From: Pseudomonadota bacterium | Lineage (GTDB): Bacteria; Pseudomonadota; Alphaproteobacteria; GCA-2746255 | Assembly: GCA_040752895.1 (NCBI GenBank) | Contig: JBFMHN010000006.1 | Location: 62,001-126,000 of the forward strand | Length of the DNA: 64,000 bases | Reading direction: 5' to 3' | Translations under genes and position numbers: made by a program | Shown: piece after piece, positions 28,483 to 38,801 of the stretch | How positions within the stretch are numbered: the first letter of the stretch is position 1 | How the letters are laid out: every line of letters begins with the position of its first letter | Notes under the pieces: generated by a model | The model's database searches: none | What the model saw: only the letters and a program-made list of their open reading frames with translations | Told to the model about the DNA's origin: nothing

Positions 28483-29853
28483 TCAGACGACCAGATCGTC
28501 GGTCGCGAAGAAAAAACCGGCCAGCTCGACGCCGGCAAAGCTTCCCGGGTTACCGGCATAACCGTCAACGCGGAAAAGCGACCGGAAGAGCACGAAGGGT
28601 GCGGCCGTGTCGTGGACAAAAAGCGTGAGATCGCCAGCGCCATCGACGACGCCAAGGGCTTCCGTCGTCGACGTGAAGCCGAGGAGACGGGCAAAATTGA
28701 CGCCGGAGATATCCTGGACAACATCGAAGCCGGTCTCGTCCCCATAGAAAAGATAGATGTCGTCGCCATCGCCGCCCGCCAGAAAGTCGTCGCCATTGCC
28801 ACCGGCAAGCGTATCGTTGCCGCCCATACCGAAAAGGAAGTCGTCGCCGTCGCCGCCCCAAAGCGTATTCGCCCCTTCGTTCCCCGTGATCGTGTTCGGA
28901 TCGGCGTTCCCGATCGCGTTGGCCGCGAGACCTCCCTCCAGACGAAGTGCTTCGATATTGTTGTCAACGAAAAAGAGATGGCCCGCGTCGACCGGGCTCT
29001 TCCCGCCGAGCGCGCCGCCCGCGAAGACGAAGGTCGCCGGCGCCGAACCGGCGCCGATGGCGGCAATCAACGGATCGCCCGCCACGGCGGTGTCAAACCC
29101 GCCGGATAGCCCCGGCAAGGCCTCGAAGGCCGTGTCGCCGGGGTCATCCAGAAAATAGGTGTCATCGCCGAAACCGCCGCTGAGAAAATCGTCGCCCGGC
29201 CCGCCGTCGAGGAAATCGTCGCCCGGCCCGCCGAAGAGTTGATCCGAACCCGCGCCCCCGAACAGCCGGTCGCTGCCGTTGCCGCCCTCAAGCCAGTCGC
29301 TTCCGCCAAGCCCCTCCAGCCGATCGTCCTCTGCTTCGCCGAACAGGAAATCCTGCAAATTCGTGCCAGTGAAAAGATCGTCCCCGTTACCGCCGATCCG
29401 CGTGAGACCGAGCGGCACCGGCGGCGGCACCGGCGGCGGGGTGACGATCGGCGCGGCCGGAAGGAAGTCCCGGCTTGGTGTCGCGATCAGAAAGGAGCCC
29501 GGCCCTTCCACGGCCCCGATTTCGGCAAGAAATTCGGCCTCGGGCGGAATGGCGAAGGTCGAGCCGAAGGCGAAATCGGCAGCAGACGGCGGAATTGGAC
29601 CGGCGGAGGCGACCGTTTCGGCCGACCGGTGCGTGGCGTCGGAAAGGCCAGAGGCACGGCCATCCTCTTCGTCGTCTTCGCCGGCCGCCGGTTGCCCGAT
29701 CGGTGGCGTATCGAGCGGCCCGATGGCAAGAAAAAGTGCCGCGAAATCCGGCAGGGCGACGGACGGTTCGTTGGGCAAGGCGGCAGCCGACCCCTCGACG
29801 GCCACCCCGGACACCGGTTGGGGATTCGGCGGAGGCGGATTAGGCTCGGCCAT
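28483..29853 (-). CDS. RTX (hemolysin-type calcium-binding repeat) protein
   Basis: A 456-residue protein without an N-terminal signal peptide. The first 150 residues are Pro/Ala-rich and low complexity. RTX nonapeptides then occur in two blocks, about 150-240 (GGNGDDLFTGTN, GGSDWLEGGNGSDRLFGG, GGPGDDFLDGGPGDDFLSGG) and about 320-372 (GGDGDDFLFGMGGNDTLAGG, GNGDDFLAGGDGDDIYLF). These bind calcium and fold in the extracellular medium after type I secretion. No enzymatic domain is seen. The adjacent genes are not type I secretion components, so export must rely on a transporter elsewhere. It converges on the acyl-CoA dehydrogenase with six bases between. Confidence 0.88.
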   Translation of the reverse strand: MAEPNPPPPNPQPVSGVAVEGSAAALPNEPSVALPDFAALFLAIGPLDTPPIGQPAAGEDDEEDGRASGLSDATHRSAETVASAGPIPPSAADFAFGSTFAIPPEAEFLAEIGAVEGPGSFLIATPSRDFLPAAPIVTPPPVPPPVPLGLTRIGGNGDDLFTGTNLQDFLFGEAEDDRLEGLGGSDWLEGGNGSDRLFGGAGSDQLFGGPGDDFLDGGPGDDFLSGGFGDDTYFLDDPGDTAFEALPGLSGGFDTAVAGDPLIAAIGAGSAPATFVFAGGALGGKSPVDAGHLFFVDNNIEALRLEGGLAANAIGNADPNTITGNEGANTLWGGDGDDFLFGMGGNDTLAGGNGDDFLAGGDGDDIYLFYGDETGFDVVQDISGVNFARLLGFTSTTEALGVVDGAGDLTLFVHDTAAPFVLFRSLFRVDGYAGNPGSFAGVELAGFFFATDDLVV

Positions 29854-30265
29854 TTACCACCATAAGAATACTAAGTTAAAATCATCTCTACCTTAAATAG
29901 AAATACAAATACGTAGATTAACTATTGGTAGAAATAGTTTATTTATTATCTATTTATAAATTTATTCTTTCCTGATACTTTGGCTAATTCTCCAATTAAT
30001 TAACTATTAACTAAAATCTTCTTCTGTCAATCGCGACCTGCCCTTCTCTCGCCTTCCCGATGCCGTTCGCAAAAGGGCGCGGCGTTCGGGCCGCGGCGTT
30101 CGGGCGAAGGCGGCCAAACGAATTCCCCGTCCCGCTCAAAAGGGCGGCCATGTGGTTTCGCTTGCCACGCATCGGGGAAGTAGGCAGATTTTTGGCTTGC
30201 ATTCTGCTCGGCAATAAGCGAAACAACGCCGCCGATCCCGGGTTCGAATTAGAGGAGTGCTTGCA
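29854..30265. other. Intergenic region with an AT-rich block
   Basis: No gene seen. 29860-30020 is strikingly AT-rich (runs such as TTATTTATTATCTATTTATA) in an otherwise GC-rich window and lies upstream of the divergently read RTX gene. 30020-30265 returns to normal composition and should carry the speD promoter, but no consensus pair is convincing. Short frames here are not protein-like. Confidence 0.5.
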
Positions 30266-30730
30266 ATGGCACGAAGGATCACCGTTGCAAACACGGCGGT
30301 TCCGCCCGAGCAGGACATTCCTGACTCCACGCCAACTTTGCACACCGCCACGCCAGTGGTGGATTACTTCATCCAGCGAAATGGCATGGCTTACGCCGGC
30401 ACGCACCTATTGCTCGACTTTTGGGGGTGCGAAAATCTCGATCGACTCGATATCATCGAGACCGCCTTGCGCGAAGGCGCGCGAACGGCGGGGGCGACGC
30501 TTCTCGACGTTCGGCTACATCACTTCACGTCGAGCGGCGGCATTTCCGGCGTTGCCGTTCTCGCCGAATCCCATATCAGCATCCACACCTGGCCGGAGCG
30601 TGGATACGCCGCCCTCGATATTTTCATGTGCGGGGCCTGCGACCCCTATAAGGCCATTCCCGTTCTCCGCAGGGCCATGAACCCGCGGACGGTCCAGCTT
30701 CACGAGCAGCGTCGAGGACTCACGATTTGA
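30266..30730 (+). CDS. speD: S-adenosylmethionine decarboxylase proenzyme
   Basis: Polyamine biosynthesis: makes decarboxylated SAM, the aminopropyl donor. It is the short bacterial (SpeH-like) class, 154 residues. The self-processing site is the Glu-Ser of AESHISIHTWPERGYAALD, where Ser becomes the pyruvoyl group; FMCGACDPYKAI carries the conserved cysteine. The N-terminal 35 residues are longer than in typical 120-130-residue homologues. AGGAG lies eight bases before ATG 30266, preferred over the GTG at 30257. The stop overlaps the speE start. Confidence 0.92.
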   Translation: MARRITVANTAVPPEQDIPDSTPTLHTATPVVDYFIQRNGMAYAGTHLLLDFWGCENLDRLDIIETALREGARTAGATLLDVRLHHFTSSGGISGVAVLAESHISIHTWPERGYAALDIFMCGACDPYKAIPVLRRAMNPRTVQLHEQRRGLTI

Positions 30731-31575
30731 CGGATCGGTGGTTCGAGGAAACGCTGTACCCACATCACGGGCAGCGGCTGAAGGTTGCTGAAATCCTTCA
30801 TCGTGAAAAGACCGATTACCAGGATCTCGTCATCTTCGAGAATCCCCAGTTCGGCCGCGTCCTGGCGCTGGACGGCAACGTTCAGACGACGGAGGCCGAT
30901 GAATTCTTCTACCACGAGATGCTCGTGCATCCCGCCATCTTCGCCCATGGCGAGGTCAAGAAGGCTCTCATCATCGGCGGCGGTGACGGCGGCGCCTTGC
31001 GGGAGGCTCTCAAGCACCCGATCGAGAAGGCAACGCTTATCGAGATCGATTCAAGCGTGGTCGAGCTATCCAAAAAATACCTGCCGGCCATCTCTGGCCA
31101 TGCCTTCAAGGACCCGCGTACCGAGCTCATCATCCAGGACGGGACCAAGTTCGTCGCCGAGACGGATGAGCGTTTCGATGTCATCCTCGTCGACTCGACG
31201 GATCCGATCGGCCCGGCCACCGTCCTCTTCCAGAAAGAGTTCTATACGAACTGCAAGCGATGCCTGACCGAAAGGGGCATTCTCATCGCCCAGAATGGCG
31301 TGCCTTTCCTGCAACCGGAGGAAGCCCGCGGCGCCCATCGGCTGTTCCGCGGACTCTTTCCCGATTCCAGCTTTCTCGTCGTGCCGGTGCCAACCTATGT
31401 CGGAGGGTTCATGACGCTTGGCTGGGCGTCGCTCTCCGAGAAAAACCGGGCCGTTTCACGGGATACGATCGAACGCCGTTTCGCGGGCTCCGGCGTTTCC
31501 ACCCGTTACTACAACCCAGATATCCACCTTGCCGCCTTCGCCCTTCCCACCTATATCCGTGAGCTGATGGGCTGA
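30727..31575 (+). CDS. speE: Spermidine synthase (polyamine aminopropyltransferase)
   Basis: Transfers the aminopropyl group of decarboxylated SAM to putrescine. It has 282 residues and starts with TTG at 30727, overlapping the speD stop by four bases, so the two enzymes are made from one message. Key segments are the N-terminal WFEETLYPHHGQRLKV, the nucleotide-binding LIIGGGDGGALREALKHP, the acidic VTLIEIDSSVV-like strand (read here as TLIEIDSSVVELSKKY) and the catalytic VILVDSTDPIGPATVLF. Confidence 0.95.
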   Translation: MTDRWFEETLYPHHGQRLKVAEILHREKTDYQDLVIFENPQFGRVLALDGNVQTTEADEFFYHEMLVHPAIFAHGEVKKALIIGGGDGGALREALKHPIEKATLIEIDSSVVELSKKYLPAISGHAFKDPRTELIIQDGTKFVAETDERFDVILVDSTDPIGPATVLFQKEFYTNCKRCLTERGILIAQNGVPFLQPEEARGAHRLFRGLFPDSSFLVVPVPTYVGGFMTLGWASLSEKNRAVSRDTIERRFAGSGVSTRYYNPDIHLAAFALPTYIRELMG

Positions 31576-31641
31576 GCCGTTTCAGGCGGCGCAGGCAACG
31601 CGGCGGCCTCAACCTCGGGGTCACAAACGGGGTTCACGAAA

Positions 31642-32472
31642 ATGGCAGACAGCACACAGCCGACAACCCCGCTTCCCGGCATTCGCGCCGTTATCGCCGT
31701 TTCCTCGGCAAAGGGCGGCGTCGGCAAATCAACAACGGCCGTCAACCTGGCGGTCGGCATGGCACGGCGCGGGCGACGCGTGGCGATGCTCGATGCGGAC
31801 ATTTACGGGCCGTCCCTGCCGCGGCTGCTCGGGATTCGGGGAAAACCCGGCTCCACCGACGGCAAGCACCTCGACCCGATGCAAAGCCACGGCATTGGCT
31901 GCATGTCGATCGGCTTCTTCGTCGCCGAGGACACGCCCATGATCTGGCGCGGCGCCATGGTGATGGGGGCGATCGAGAACCTGATCCGGGATGTCGCATG
32001 GGGAGAGCTGGACGTGCTGGTCCTCGACATGCCGCCCGGCACCGGCGACGCCCAGCTCAGTATCACGCAGCGCATTCCCCTGACGGGTGCCGTTGCCGTC
32101 TCGACGCCCCAGGACATCGCCCTTCTCGATACGCGGAAAGGGATCGCCATGTTCCGGAAGGTGAACGTGCCGATCTTCGGCCTGGTGGAGAATATGAGCT
32201 ACTTCCTATGCCCAAGCTGCGACGGCCGGTCGGACATTTTCGGCCATGGCGGGGCGGCAACGGCAGCGCGGGAGCTTGGCATCGATTTCCTGGGCGAAAT
32301 ACCGCTTGAGATTGCGATCCGGGAGACGTCGGACGCCGGCACGCCCATCGTCGCCAAAACCCCGGACAGCCCCGAGGCCCGCGCCTACATGGCAATCGCC
32401 GACCGCCTGCTCGAAAAGATCGCCGCGGCGGAGGGCACGGGGCGGAAGGCGCCGCGAATCGTCGTCCAGTAG
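31642..32472 (+). CDS. Mrp/ApbC-type iron-sulfur carrier ATPase
   Basis: P-loop ATPase of the Mrp/NBP35 family that assembles and transfers Fe-S clusters, 276 residues. It has the deviant Walker A SSAKGGVGKSTTAVNLAVG near residue 21, the Mrp signature VLDMPPGTGDAQLSITQ near 130, and the cluster-binding CPSC near 190 (YFLCPSCDGRSDIFG). It lacks the N-terminal MIP18-like domain of longer Mrp proteins, so it is the short form. It follows speE by 66 bp on the same strand and converges on DUF971. Confidence 0.9.
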   Translation: MADSTQPTTPLPGIRAVIAVSSAKGGVGKSTTAVNLAVGMARRGRRVAMLDADIYGPSLPRLLGIRGKPGSTDGKHLDPMQSHGIGCMSIGFFVAEDTPMIWRGAMVMGAIENLIRDVAWGELDVLVLDMPPGTGDAQLSITQRIPLTGAVAVSTPQDIALLDTRKGIAMFRKVNVPIFGLVENMSYFLCPSCDGRSDIFGHGGAATAARELGIDFLGEIPLEIAIRETSDAGTPIVAKTPDSPEARAYMAIADRLLEKIAAAEGTGRKAPRIVVQ

Positions 32473-32486
32473 CACGCCGCACCCGC

Positions 32487-32846
32487 TCAAGGGTCGCGGC
32501 TTAGGCCTTCCTTCTCCAGCCGGTCAAGGTAACGCTGCCAGATTTCCCGGTGGCGGTTTCCAAGCTCGTACAGGTAATCCCACGAATAGATGCCGGTATC
32601 GTGCAGGTCGTCGAAAGCAATCTGGATCGCGTAGTTGCCAACCGGCGTCACGTTCAGGATGCCGACATGCCGGCGCCCGCCGATCAATTTTTCCTCGCCC
32701 GCCCCGTGCCCGCGCATCTCAGCGGAAGGGCTATTGATGCGCAGGAATTCCGCCGGGAAGACAAAGGTCTTCCCGTCATCGAAATCGATTTCGAGGGCTT
32801 TTTCTTGCGTTTTGTGCCGGATTTCGGCTGGCCAGGCGCGCGCCAT
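32487..32846 (-). CDS. DUF971 family protein
   Basis: A 119-residue protein of the DUF971 family (related to the N-terminal domain of gamma-butyrobetaine hydroxylase). Typical features are FPAEFLRINSPSAEMRGHG and, later, VGNYAIQIAFDDLHDTGIYS followed by WDYLYELG. DUF971 proteins are often found near Mrp-type ATPases, as here, hinting at an Fe-S link, though the function is not established. It follows the halohydrin dehalogenase-like gene by nine bases and is probably in the same transcript. Confidence 0.88.
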   Translation of the reverse strand: MARAWPAEIRHKTQEKALEIDFDDGKTFVFPAEFLRINSPSAEMRGHGAGEEKLIGGRRHVGILNVTPVGNYAIQIAFDDLHDTGIYSWDYLYELGNRHREIWQRYLDRLEKEGLSRDP

Positions 32847-32855
32847 CTTTACCTC

Positions 32856-33587
32856 TTAGACCCAGCCGCCGCAGAAATGGATGAGTTGGCCGGTGAAGAA
32901 GTTCGAACGCTCCGAGGCAAGATAGCCGACCAGCTCCTCCAGCTCCTCCGGCCTCGCGTACCGCTTGATCGGGCAGCTCTCCCGAACCAGTTTCCGCATG
33001 AAATCCGTGCCCAGAATTTCCTTCGGGAAATAGGTTGGGTTTTCGGCATAGTTCGGCCCGATCGCGTTCACCTGGATGTTGGCGTCCGCCACCTCCATGG
33101 CCAACGCCCGCATCATCGCGCTCGCCCCGCCGCGCGCCGCGCAATAGGTCGCCAGATTCGGCAGGCCCTTGACCGGCCCGGCCGACGTCATGAAGACGAT
33201 CTTGCCGGATTTTTGCTTCTTCATGTGGGGGATGGCGGCGCGGGCGACGCGGAAAGGCTCGATCGTGAGGCCGTCCAGATAATCCTGGAAAACCTCGAGG
33301 CTCGCCGTCTCGATCGCCGAAGGAAAGAGCGGCACGAAATTGTTGCTGAAAAGAAGGTCGATCCGGCCGTGCCGTTTGACGACTTCCGCGACCTGTTTTT
33401 CCGGCGCGAGCCCGGTGACGATTTCGACCCTCGGGTTCGCCGCGGCGAAGGCCTGGCGATCCTTCGCGTTTGCGAAGCTGCGGTCGCTGCCCAGCACGGT
33501 CGCGCCGCCCGCCAGAAGCGCCTTGGTGGCGGCCGGGCCGCCATAGCCGGTGATATGGGTGAGCAGGCAGACTTTGCTATTCGCCAC
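32856..33587 (-). CDS. Halohydrin dehalogenase family protein with intact catalytic motifs
   Basis: A 243-residue SDR-fold protein. Two signatures that separate halohydrin dehalogenases from ordinary SDRs are present: T-X4-[FY]-X-G as THITGYGG at residues 10-17 in place of the NAD glycine motif, and S-X12-Y-X3-R as Ser135, Tyr148 and Arg152 (MTSAGPVKGLPNLATYCAAR). The spacing equals that of HheC (S132/Y145/R149). GPNYAENPTYFPKE and the ending LASERSNFFTGQLIHFCGG also follow HheC. Such enzymes turn vicinal halohydrins into epoxides reversibly and open epoxides with nucleophiles. The GTG start at 33587 is chosen because GGGAGG lies just upstream; no aligned sequence precedes it. It is co-oriented with a degenerate paralogue 20 bp upstream. 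The natural substrate is unknown. Confidence 0.85.
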   Translation of the reverse strand: MANSKVCLLTHITGYGGPAATKALLAGGATVLGSDRSFANAKDRQAFAAANPRVEIVTGLAPEKQVAEVVKRHGRIDLLFSNNFVPLFPSAIETASLEVFQDYLDGLTIEPFRVARAAIPHMKKQKSGKIVFMTSAGPVKGLPNLATYCAARGGASAMMRALAMEVADANIQVNAIGPNYAENPTYFPKEILGTDFMRKLVRESCPIKRYARPEELEELVGYLASERSNFFTGQLIHFCGGWV

Positions 33588-33607
33588 CGTTTCCTCCCGT
33601 TTTTTCC

Positions 33608-34336
33608 TCAGGCCCACCCGCCGGTGAACGGAATGACCTGCCCGGTCACGAAATCCGAGCCTTCGGAAGCAAGAAAGGCGACGAGCCCGCCGGCCTCCTG
33701 CGGTTTTGCCTTCCGCATGGGCTTGTTCTTGAGGTAGATCGTCGTCTCGGCCGTCGTTTCTCCCATCATCTCCTTCGGAAAATAGGTCGGTCGGATCGAT
33801 TCGTCCAACCCGATGGCGTTCACTTGAACGTTGGCGTCGGCAAGTTCCTCGGCCATCGAGATCATCAGCGCGTTTGCCGTGCCTTGCGCCGCGCAATAGG
33901 CGGTGTGCTTGGCAAGCCCGCGCCGGGGGCCATTCGAGGTCACGAAGATGATCTTGCCCGACTTCCGCTTCCGCATGTGAAAGACCGCCGCCTTCGCCAG
34001 CCGGAACGGCTCGATGGCCAGCCTATCCAGATAGGCCTGCAATGCCGCCGGTTTCGTCTTCTCGATGATGGCGGGCTCGTGGGCGCTCAAGGCGTTCGAA
34101 ACCACGACGTCCACCCGACCGTGTTTCTTCACGACCTCGGCGACCAACGTCTCCGGATCGAGAGTCTTCGTCACGTGGAGCTTGGGATGCTTTTTCGCAT
34201 AGGCCTTGTGGTCGGCCGCCTTCTGGAAGCGGCGATCGTTGACGACGACGGTCGCACCCGTCTTTGCCAACGCGTCCGCGCTGCCCTGGCCGACGCCGCT
34301 CGTGACATGGGTGACGATGCAAATTTTCTTTTTCAT
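33608..34336 (-). CDS. Halohydrin dehalogenase-like paralogue, catalytic Arg replaced
   Basis: A 242-residue protein clearly homologous to its downstream neighbour along its whole length (shared MRKRKSGKIIFVTSNGP, AYCAAQGTANAL and GSDFVTGQVIPFTGGWA). The catalytic set is changed: Ser134 and Tyr147 remain, but Gln151 stands where Arg is expected, and the aromatic residue of the N-terminal motif is Gly (THVTSGVG at 9-16). It also has neither a normal YxxxK nor the usual SDR NAD motif. It may therefore be a non-catalytic partner, a different activity, or a decaying copy; the conserved hydrophobic core argues against decay. First gene of a probable operon with the catalytic paralogue and DUF971. 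Confidence 0.8.
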   Translation of the reverse strand: MKKKICIVTHVTSGVGQGSADALAKTGATVVVNDRRFQKAADHKAYAKKHPKLHVTKTLDPETLVAEVVKKHGRVDVVVSNALSAHEPAIIEKTKPAALQAYLDRLAIEPFRLAKAAVFHMRKRKSGKIIFVTSNGPRRGLAKHTAYCAAQGTANALMISMAEELADANVQVNAIGLDESIRPTYFPKEMMGETTAETTIYLKNKPMRKAKPQEAGGLVAFLASEGSDFVTGQVIPFTGGWA

Positions 34337-34471: not shown

Positions 34472-37400
34472 TCAGGCACTTCCGGTCTTGCGCGCCGCCA
34501 GGGCATCCCCCGATTTTTTGCCGGGGGCACCGCTCCAGCGCGCCAGGGCGCCGTGCAGTTTTGCCTCGTCGATCGGCTTCGAAATGTAATCGTTCATGCC
34601 GGCCGCCAGGTACTTCTCGCGGTCGCCCTTCATTGCGTTCGCCGTCAGGGCGATGATGGGGATGCGGGCGAGATCGCCGGGCAAGGACCGGATCTTCGCC
34701 GTTGCCTCCAGGCCATCCATTTCCGGCATCTGCACATCCATGAGGACGAGATCGTAAGGAATCGACTGGACGGCCTTGACCGCCTCGATGCCGTTGCCGA
34801 CCGCGTCCACGCGATGGCCTTTCCTTTGCAGCATCACGGAAGCCAAGAGCTGGTTTACCTGATTGTCCTCGGCCAGAAGGATGCGCAGAGAACGCGAAGG
34901 CGACGGCGCTTTGGCCTGGGCGCGCTCTTTATCGCTCACATCGGCCGCGGCGCAGCCTTCCGATATCGCCCGGCCGCACAGATGGGCGATGGTGTCGAAC
35001 AAAAGGGACTGAAAGACCGGCTTCGTGAGGCAAACGTCGAACCCGATCGAGCGGAAATGGGCGGTTTCCTTGCGAAGGCCGGCCGACGTGGCAAGGGCGA
35101 GCTTCATCCCGGCGAGTTCCCCGCACTTGCGAATGCGCCTGCCGAGTTCCTCGCCGTCCATCCCCGGCATCATGTGGTCGAGGATGGCGATGTCGAAGGC
35201 CGGCTTGCGTTGCTCCGCATCGGCCAGGATATTCAGCGCCGCCTTGCCGCTTTCGACGCAGACCACCTGCATCCCCCAGGATTCAAACTGCTTTTGTAAG
35301 ATACGCCGGTTCAATTTCGAATCGTCCACAACCAGCACCCGCAAATTCGAAAGGCTTTCGAGCGGCAGGACCAGCGACCGCCTTCTTTTTTTCGGGTGCC
35401 CGACCTGAATTTCGAACCAGAAGGTGCTGCCATCGCCGGGCGCGCTGTCCACGCCGATCCGACCATTCATGAGCGTGACAAGCTGCTTGCAGATCGCCAG
35501 ACCCAGGCCGGTGCCGCCATAGCGGCGCGTCGTCGAGGAATCGGCCTGGGTGAATCTCTGGAACAATTGATCCTGCGCCTTCCGTTGGATTCCGATCCCG
35601 GTGTCCGTCACTTCGAATCGCAGGCAGAATTTCTTCTTTGTGTCGCTCAACAGGCTGATACTGACCGCGACCGATCCTCCTGCCGTGAATTTGATCGCGT
35701 TGCCGACCAGATTCATCAGCACCTGCCGCAGCCGGGCTTGATCGCCGCGGACATGGGAGGGCACGTCCGGCGCGAAGAACGTCAGGAAATCGATCCCTTT
35801 CCCCGTGGCTTGGAGACCCAGCAATTCGCCAACGTCTTCAACGAGTTCAACAAGGTCAAAATCTATCACTTCGAGGGCGAGCTTGCCCGCCTCCAGTTTC
35901 GAGAAGTCGAGGATGTCGTTGATAATCGTCAGCAGGCTGTCGGCGGATTGGCGGATCGTTTCCGCGTATTGACGCTGTTCGTCGTCGAGTTTCGTCTCCA
36001 GCAACAGACCGGACATGCCGATCACGCCGTTCATCGGGGTGCGGATTTCGTGACTCATAACGGCAAGGAATTCGGACTTCGTGCGGGTAGCGATCTCGGC
36101 CGTCTCTTTCGCGGCCCTCAACGCCTGCTCGGCGCGCTGCCGTTTCGTGATATCGGTGACGATGGCCGTGAAAATGGCCTTCCCGTCGGTTTCCAGTACG
36201 GCCAGGCTAAGGGCGAGATGCATGGGAAATTCGGTGTCGTCCTGGCGCCGCCCCCGGGCCTCCCAGCCCCGGCTGAGAACTCGGTTTTCCTTTGCCCCAC
36301 GGTGCCGATCCAAATAGCCGATATATTCTTCGCAATCGGCCAACGGCATTAAGACAAGAAAGTTCTGGCCGATGATTTTCTCCGCCGCGTAACCAAAAAT
36401 CTGTTCGGCTGCCGGGTTGAAACTTTCGATCACGCCGTCCCCGTCGAAGGTGATGATACCGGTGGCGGCGGTGTCCAGAACCACCTGCAACCGCTTTTCG
36501 CTTTCCACAAGTTGCCGGGTTATGCGCTGGGTCTCGCCCGCGTGCAAGGCAAGCACACGTTCCATCTGCTTGCGCTCCGTAATATCGGAGGCGATGCTGC
36601 AAATCTCGGCGGGCCAGCCGCCCACGTCCTTCAGGACGAAACTCGTCTGCAAGAAGGTTCGCGAAACGCCTTTTACCTTGATGACGACTTCGTTCCCCTC
36701 GGGAACGTCGAGGGTGGCCAGCGCGATCCGCTCGCTTTGCTCCGCCCAGTCGCCAAGTTCCGGGTACACCTCGCGAATCGTCTTTCCCCGCCACGCCTTG
36801 GCATTGATGCCGAAAATCTCCTGCTGGCGCCGGTTGACCCATTTGTAGCGGCCGCCAATGTCCTTCAGGGATATGCAAAGGGGGGCCGAATCCAGGATGC
36901 CCTGAAGCTGGCGGTCGCCTTCGCGCAGCTTCGTTTCCATGCGCTTGCGTTCGGTGATGTCACGGGCAACCCCGACGAACAGAACCCTTCCCTTGATCCA
37001 CATCTCGTTGATGGTGAGCCCGACCGGAAAGGTCGTACCGTCCCGCCGCTTGCCCTTCGCCTCGTGGCTGGCCTCGACCGCCCCCGTTTTCGCCAGATCG
37101 CCGAGAAAGCCGCTGACGCCGGCCTCGGCGTGGAGGTTGTCCTCGGAAGGAAAGGAAGGCATGAGAAGCCGGATATTCTCGCCGATGACCTCTTCGGCGA
37201 CACGGCCAAACATCTTTTCTCCTCCCTGGTTGAAGGAAAGAAGGGTGCCGCTTTCATCGAGACTGAAGATGGCGTCCGGCGCGTTGGAAACGATGGCGTC
37301 CAGATAGGCCCGATTTTTTATCTCGTCCCTGAAGACCGCGTTCAAACTCAAGGTCAGGCCGACAAGCACGAAGCTATAGCTTGCCGCCCCAAGCACATGA

Positions 37401-38137
37401 GCGGCGGCAAATGCCGTTGCGGGCGACTGGTCCGAAAACGGCGTCAGCGCGAGTTGCCCAGCGAGGCCGACAAGGAGGGAAAGCACGAGCCAGTGTTCGA
37501 AAACGTCCTCCCGCCAGCCGCCTTTCCGAAGGTAACCCACCAAGGCGAGCAGAAAAAAACCGGCGGCGGTGAACGCTTCAAGCCCTAGCCGGGAGGCCTC
37601 TTCCGGGCGAAGGGGGGTTAGGGGAAGGAAAGAGAAAAAATAGATGCACGCCAGGGCTATCCCGCCTGCGACAAGGTAAAGGGTACCCTTTGGAACCAAC
37701 GCGATTTTTTTTCGCAGGCCAGGGTGCCACGCCAGCCAACTGAACCACAACGCGCCCCCCAACAGAACGCCCGAGGCCGTCCGGTCCCAAGCCCCGCCTA
37801 CGGAATGCCCCGATGAAGGGAAGTCTGCGAGGGGGCCATGAAGGCTGAGGATATAGTAGCTGTCCAGCAGACCGGCGCCAAAGAAGCCGGCGCCGATGAA
37901 AAGAAAGGGGCTGCTTCTCTCGCCTTGAAACCGAATCAGCATCAATGCGCTGATGAAGAACGCCAGCAGCGCCGCAACCCCTTCCCCCGCGCTGAGCACT
38001 TCATGCAAAAGCGTCCACGCGCCGCCGGGCAGCAAAAAGACGCCCGCGGCAAGACTGCCTCCAAAAATCCCGTAGAAAAGAACCCTCCGACGGGCCTGCT
38101 TGGCACGTTCCGCTTTAAATGCGACCGATTGGAACAT
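34472..38137 (-). CDS. Membrane hybrid sensor histidine kinase (MASE3-like, PAS x3, HisKA, HATPase, REC x2)
   Basis: A 1221-residue sensor kinase. An N-terminal block of about eight hydrophobic segments to residue 270 resembles MASE3 ([20 protein letters not shown]). Three PAS domains follow (about 280-400, 410-535, 550-680), then HisKA with [14 protein letters not shown], an HATPase domain with [14 protein letters not shown] and [11 protein letters not shown], and two receiver domains with [13 protein letters not shown] and [13 protein letters not shown]. No Hpt domain is present, so output goes to a separate Hpt protein or is internal. The start at 38137 is preferred because a TATAGA that could be a -10 lies in the longer reading from 38188. 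The ligand is unknown. Confidence 0.88.
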
Positions 38138-38294
38138 TTCGCCACCGAAAGAATTACACGAATTACGCGTGTCGTTTCTATATGACACACGTAAAAGATG
38201 TATTAAGCGGTGGCGGTGGCGATGGCGGCTGGACCTTTACCCGCCGCCGTTCCGCCCGCAAACCGGAGAAAGTTCGTCTCGTCCGGCGCCGTGT

Positions 38295-38801
38295 TTAGGT
38301 TTGCCGAATCTTGATCGTCTTCGCCGTCGCCTCGGCGCCGGGCCGTTTCGCGAGGACGATCTTGAGGACGCCCTTCTCGAAGGTCGCCTCGATCTTGTTC
38401 GCGTCCACCGTCTCGGGCAAACGGAACGACCGGCGGAAGCTGCCATAACTCCGTTCGGACAGGTAGCGGTTCTTCTTCTTCTCCTCCCTCTCGATCTTCT
38501 TCTCGCCCGCGATGTTGAGATAACCGTCCGACAAGGTCGCGGAAACGTCTTTTTCATCCAGGCCGGGCAGCTCAGCCGTGATTTCAACCTGCTTGTCCGT
38601 CTCGCTCATGTCGATTCGCGGGAAGACGTCGCCAAAGACCGGGCCAAGACGTCCGCCAAGATTAGCCCCGAAGAAACTGGGCGCGGAAAAGCCGTGAAGA
38701 AACTCATCGAACATGCGGTCAATCCCCTCGCGCAAGGAAAGCAAGGGGTGGATATCGCCCGCCCTGGCCGGCGCCGTTTTAGGTGCGGATTTTTTCGCCA
38801 T
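38295..38801 (-). CDS. Hsp20/alpha-crystallin small heat-shock protein
   Basis: ATP-independent holdase chaperone, 168 residues. The N-terminal arm contains HPLLSLREGIDRMFDEFLHG; the alpha-crystallin domain has RIDMSETDKQVEITAELPGL, DVSATLSDGYLNIAGEKK and SFRRSFRLPETVDANKIEAT, and the C-terminus has GVLKIVLAKRPG. It belongs to the Hsp20 class with a long N-terminal arm. No sigma-32 promoter or ROSE-type element could be read confidently upstream. It stands alone between a sensor kinase and glnK. Confidence 0.92.
   Translation of the reverse strand: MAKKSAPKTAPARAGDIHPLLSLREGIDRMFDEFLHGFSAPSFFGANLGGRLGPVFGDVFPRIDMSETDKQVEITAELPGLDEKDVSATLSDGYLNIAGEKKIEREEKKKNRYLSERSYGSFRRSFRLPETVDANKIEATFEKGVLKIVLAKRPGAEATAKTIKIRQT

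Follow-up and report, generated by a model that had tools for sequence, protein, structure and literature searches.

The question raised by this locus is why a bacterium should keep, directly in front of a gene of the halohydrin dehalogenase (HHDH) type, a full-length second copy with an altered active site. The window, a stretch of 64,000 bases, comes from an alphaproteobacterial genome (G000) of 2.29 Mb in 28 contigs, estimated to be 99.9% complete. The altered copy, here named hheQ (33608 to 34336, minus strand), is an intact open reading frame with an ATG start, read from 34336 to 33608. It was identified as an HHDH-family paralogue of 242 amino acids from its reading frame, translation and motif comparison, and from orthologues in two further genomes, G001 and G003. 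The second gene, hheR (32856 to 33587, minus strand), starts with GTG at 33587 and encodes an HHDH-type protein of 243 amino acids with Ser-Tyr-Arg and T-x4-Y-x-G. A sequence-only reading of this DNA had described a full-length homologue 20 bases upstream of the dehalogenase, and this was borne out: the gap occupies exactly 33588 to 33607 on the minus strand and holds the GGAGG ribosome site of hheR (33597 to 33593). The corresponding gap is 12 bases in G001 and 36 in G003. In a search of their own genome HheQ and HheR matched at E = 7.7e-68, with 47% identity over their full length. NCBIfam and Pfam returned generic SDR matches only, and the nearest solved structures by sequence, for both proteins, are HHDHs (HheC 1PWX; PDB 6A41).

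The pair is bounded upstream by a large hybrid sensor histidine kinase gene (34472 to 38188, minus strand), which ends 135 bases before hheQ. Nine bases behind hheR lies a PF06155 (GBBH-like_N) gene (32487 to 32846, minus strand) that is found with or without the pair, and beyond it a Mrp-type ATPase gene on the opposite strand. A scan of the stretch for sigma-70-like promoters gave none, which makes it likely that hheQ, hheR and the PF06155 gene are transcribed together; for hheQ and hheR, spacing and strand also point to a single transcript. Several other features of the neighbourhood were recorded. The region from 30257 to 32472 encodes AdoMet decarboxylase, spermidine synthase and the Mrp-type ATPase, toward which the PF06155 gene is convergent, and this order is shared by the four genomes of the genus. 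The ATPase gene (31642 to 32472) has a second copy elsewhere in the genome (contig C3, 59% identical), and both copies also occur in G002 and G003. An RTX-type calcium-binding repeat protein (PF00353) is encoded at 28483 to 29853, and G003 encodes a similar protein at the equivalent position (L066:13140-14528). An HSP20 gene (38295 to 38801) sits between the sensor kinase and GlnK genes, and is missing from that place in G002.

The motifs of HHDHs are T-X4-F/Y-X-G and S-X12-Y-X3-R, and in their established mechanism the Arg lowers the pKa of the Tyr (PMC4989007). HheQ was compared with 30 single-copy relatives from other Alphaproteobacteria, all of which carry S-x12-Y-x3-R. Ser134, Tyr147, Thr9 and Gly16 are retained in HheQ and both of its orthologues. 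The two substitutions reported from sequence inspection, Gln151 for Arg and Gly for the pocket aromatic, were both confirmed. Codon 151 (CAA; 33884 to 33886, minus strand) stands at the Arg of S-x12-Y-x3-R and encodes Gln in all three HheQ proteins, at a place that is Arg in all three HheR proteins and 30/30 relatives. Codon 14 (GGC; 34295 to 34297, minus strand) stands at the aromatic of T-x4-F/Y-x-G, the place of HheC F12, which is Gly, Ser or Pro in HheQ, Tyr in HheR, and Phe, Trp or Tyr in every relative. Two losses go beyond those reported earlier, and affect all three HheQ proteins: the halide-loop Asn (HheC N176; codon 178, 33803 to 33805, minus strand), which is Asn in HheR and all 30 relatives, is Asp in this HheQ and Ala or Gly in its orthologues, and the aromatic that follows it at position 179 in all 30 relatives is Glu, Ala or Asp.

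Neither HHDH motif is therefore present in HheQ, the first being interrupted by Gly, Ser or Pro at the aromatic and the second by Gln in all three proteins. The classical NAD(P)-dependent SDR motifs TGxxxGxG and YxxxK are likewise absent; HheQ has THVTSGVG, where the second Gly of the motif is Ser or Pro in the two orthologues, and YCAAQ. Because it lacks both defining HHDH motifs, annotation of HheQ as a halohydrin dehalogenase is unwarranted despite the homology, and the protein has presumably lost dehalogenase activity. As HheC F12G is active (PMC11976700), and so is an HheC variant containing N176A (PMC4989007), the Arg-to-Gln replacement is the strongest individual indication that dehalogenase chemistry has been lost, and on the same grounds HheQ could keep some chemistry. 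The earlier suggestion of a silent subunit accordingly stands on the Arg-to-Gln change, which carries most of the weight, and not on loss of the aromatic, which alone need not silence the protein.

In all three species HheR has the Ser, Tyr and Arg, the aromatics at 14 and 179, and Asn178. S-x12-Y-x3-R is intact in each of the three orthologues, and T-x4-F/Y-x-G in G000 and G001, with Ile in place of Thr in G003. These motifs suggest that HheR is the catalytic copy. Position 82 is Asn, Asn and Ser in HheR (Ser in G003) versus Asp in 29 of the 30 relatives, and several family-conserved positions are altered in both HheQ and HheR. Since Asp82 is absent and the motif-1 Thr is Ile in G003, it is doubtful that HheR is itself an active HHDH.

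The tandem pair was found in three of the four genomes of this uncharacterised genus (G000, the window's own, G001 and G003), with identical gene order and downstream neighbours; the G001 contig stops short of the upstream kinase. In the fourth genome, G002, the kinase, PF06155, Mrp ATPase and spermidine genes follow in order, but the kinase and PF06155 genes adjoin each other, 105 bases apart, and the pair is absent. No relative of hheQ or hheR was detected in G002 at E 1e-25, in a genome 88% complete and with this locus intact. A tree of the neighbouring genes groups G002 with G003 (93/94; 83/75 for Mrp alone), so joint loss of the pair in G002 is the simpler history. HHDH-like matches were present in 47 of 385 sampled Alphaproteobacteria, none of which had tandem HHDH-like genes outside the genus, and a phylum-level sample of 398 Pseudomonadota genomes yielded no further pair. 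Pattern scans for HheQ, which reach close relatives only, gave no match in plasmids, the G001 contig alone among genome contigs, and only a 23-residue match among viral contigs; with these scans and the two genome samples, a wider distribution of the pair was rejected. The expectation that the pairing would be conserved thus held within the genus, including the joint absence, and not elsewhere. In one other family (G288, G196; L033, L037) a single HHDH-like gene lies near a same-strand gene for an ordinary SDR with YxxxK.

Phylogenetic analysis placed the three HheQ and three HheR proteins in sister clades (99/99), both nested in an HHDH clade from which ordinary SDRs are excluded (100/100), so that HheQ descends from within the HHDH clade. 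The sister clades therefore indicate one duplication before the sampled species split, which is a tandem and lineage-specific one. Gene conversion between the copies was considered and rejected, as Q-R identities within and across genomes are alike along the genes. The sequence-only reading had raised relaxed selection on the paralogue as a concern; codon models instead gave purifying selection in both clades (omega 0.10 for Q, 0.11 for R), and forcing the Q clade to neutrality lowered lnL from -3813.5 to -3920.9. Purifying selection on HheQ is as strong as that on HheR, and HheQ is therefore not decaying. On the stem between Q and R omega was 1.28 (lnL gain of 5.4 for two more parameters), a soft number because synonymous sites are saturated, which would fit a burst of change after the duplication.

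The explanation that we favour, and rate about evenly for and against, is that HheQ assembles with HheR as a pseudo-catalytic subunit. HheR would be the catalytic HHDH-type subunit, its presumed reaction using Ser-Tyr-Arg and no nucleotide cofactor. After the duplication HheQ would have given up the activating Arg together with the halide pocket and been retained as a partner of HheR, most likely in a mixed tetramer joined at the helix-bundle interface of SDRs, where it could shape the stability, pocket or regulation of HheR. Helix E belongs to the SDR tetramer interface. Similarity between Q and R above the family background is highest at residues 105-134, which cover the latter half of helix E and the strand that follows, and it is this peak, together with the fixed adjacency, joint loss and equal selection of the two genes, that favours a mixed assembly. 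Conservation in the first half of helix E is lower in the HheQ proteins than in the HheR proteins, which speaks against an interface kept in full, and two separate homotetramers would be served just as well by a retained interface. The Q-R pairs number three, too few for covariation. An AlphaFold model of HheQ built from four sequences had HHDHs as its top matches in a fold search; its pLDDT of 66.9 is middling, and too weak to judge the pocket. A more specific proposal, which we put forward tentatively, is that the two proteins form an obligate hetero-oligomer of catalytic and pseudo-catalytic subunits, the first of the HHDH type, with a natural substrate unlike those of known HHDHs.

Other explanations of the pair differ considerably in how well they fit. 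That HheQ is a decaying duplicate heading for loss might be suggested by its missing catalytic residues and by the absence of the pair from G002, but the frame is open in all three genomes, the Q and R branch lengths are similar, and neutrality in the Q clade, where omega is 0.10, costs about 107 lnL units; decay to a pseudogene was rejected by the codon models and is very improbable. The main rival, a possible though not a probable one, is that HheQ has become an enzyme with a new function, acting as its own homotetramer in the pathway of HheR, with a reshaped pocket that relies on Ser134, Tyr147 and perhaps His144. Retention of Ser134 and Tyr147 in all three proteins agrees with this, and residues specific to and invariant in HheQ (Gln151, His144, Thr153, Arg138 and an MRKAK stretch) suggest a conserved pocket, His144 probably aligning two positions ahead of the residue that adjoins the Tyr and lines the pocket in HheC. 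The raised omega on the stem, saturated as it is, fits as well. Such an enzyme would, however, have no cation at the usual place near the Tyr to lower its pKa, and the SDR cofactor motif TGxxxGxG has not been restored.

It is also conceivable, and in our judgement unlikely, that neither copy is an HHDH in nature, the ancestor having already shifted in substrate or reaction and HheQ and HheR dividing that role between them. Positions 82, 83, 86, 88, 199, 204, 206, 207 and 209, which are 70-100% conserved in the relatives, are lost in both proteins; these include the family Asp82, for which HheR has Asn, Asn and Ser, and the HheR of G003 departs from motif 1. An epoxide hydrolase is neither nearby nor correlated with the pair, and was rejected as a partner. 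Against this explanation, none of the three species has lost Ser-Tyr-Arg, the aromatic or the halide-loop Asn from its HheR. A shifted ancestral role would be compatible with a hetero-oligomer too.

In industrial use HHDHs are homotetramers encoded by a single gene. If true, a conserved pseudo-subunit would mean that, as in BbsCD, mixed assembly is a natural way of tuning HHDHs, and it would open a genetic route to a natural substrate. HheQ is also a clean example of a protein that has lost a catalytic Arg while staying under strong selection.

HheQ and HheR share a fold and a clade with known HHDHs (HheA to HheG; HheC 1PWX; PDB 6A41, a 'dehalogenase'). Those enzymes are described as single-gene homotetramers, each a pair of dimers (PMC4989007), whereas HheQ lacks both motifs and HheR is without the family Asp82. 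No description of an HHDH pseudoenzyme or of a tandem active/degenerate HHDH pair was found in the literature examined, so the earlier claim that such an arrangement is undescribed holds for HHDHs there, and not for the SDR superfamily, in which BbsCD is a precedent. According to the title of a reference cited in PMC10818641, BbsCD is an SDR heterotetramer whose subunits include inactive pseudoenzymes. As in BbsCD, hheQ and hheR lie side by side, encode one SDR paralogue that is intact and one with an altered catalytic site, and are maintained by selection, and by analogy HheQ may serve HheR as BbsC serves BbsD. BbsCD differs in being an NAD-dependent alcohol dehydrogenase of another SDR branch, and in that its subunits are reported to interact, an interaction that we infer for HheQ and HheR. 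In trypanosomatid deoxyhypusine synthase a paralogue that is catalytically dead joins an impaired partner in a heterotetramer and activates that partner (PMC3663545); the fold is unrelated and the organism a eukaryote, and the activation in that system was measured. Within the literature examined, the arrangement is new for HHDHs, and its principle is known both in SDRs (BbsCD) and elsewhere (deoxyhypusine synthase).
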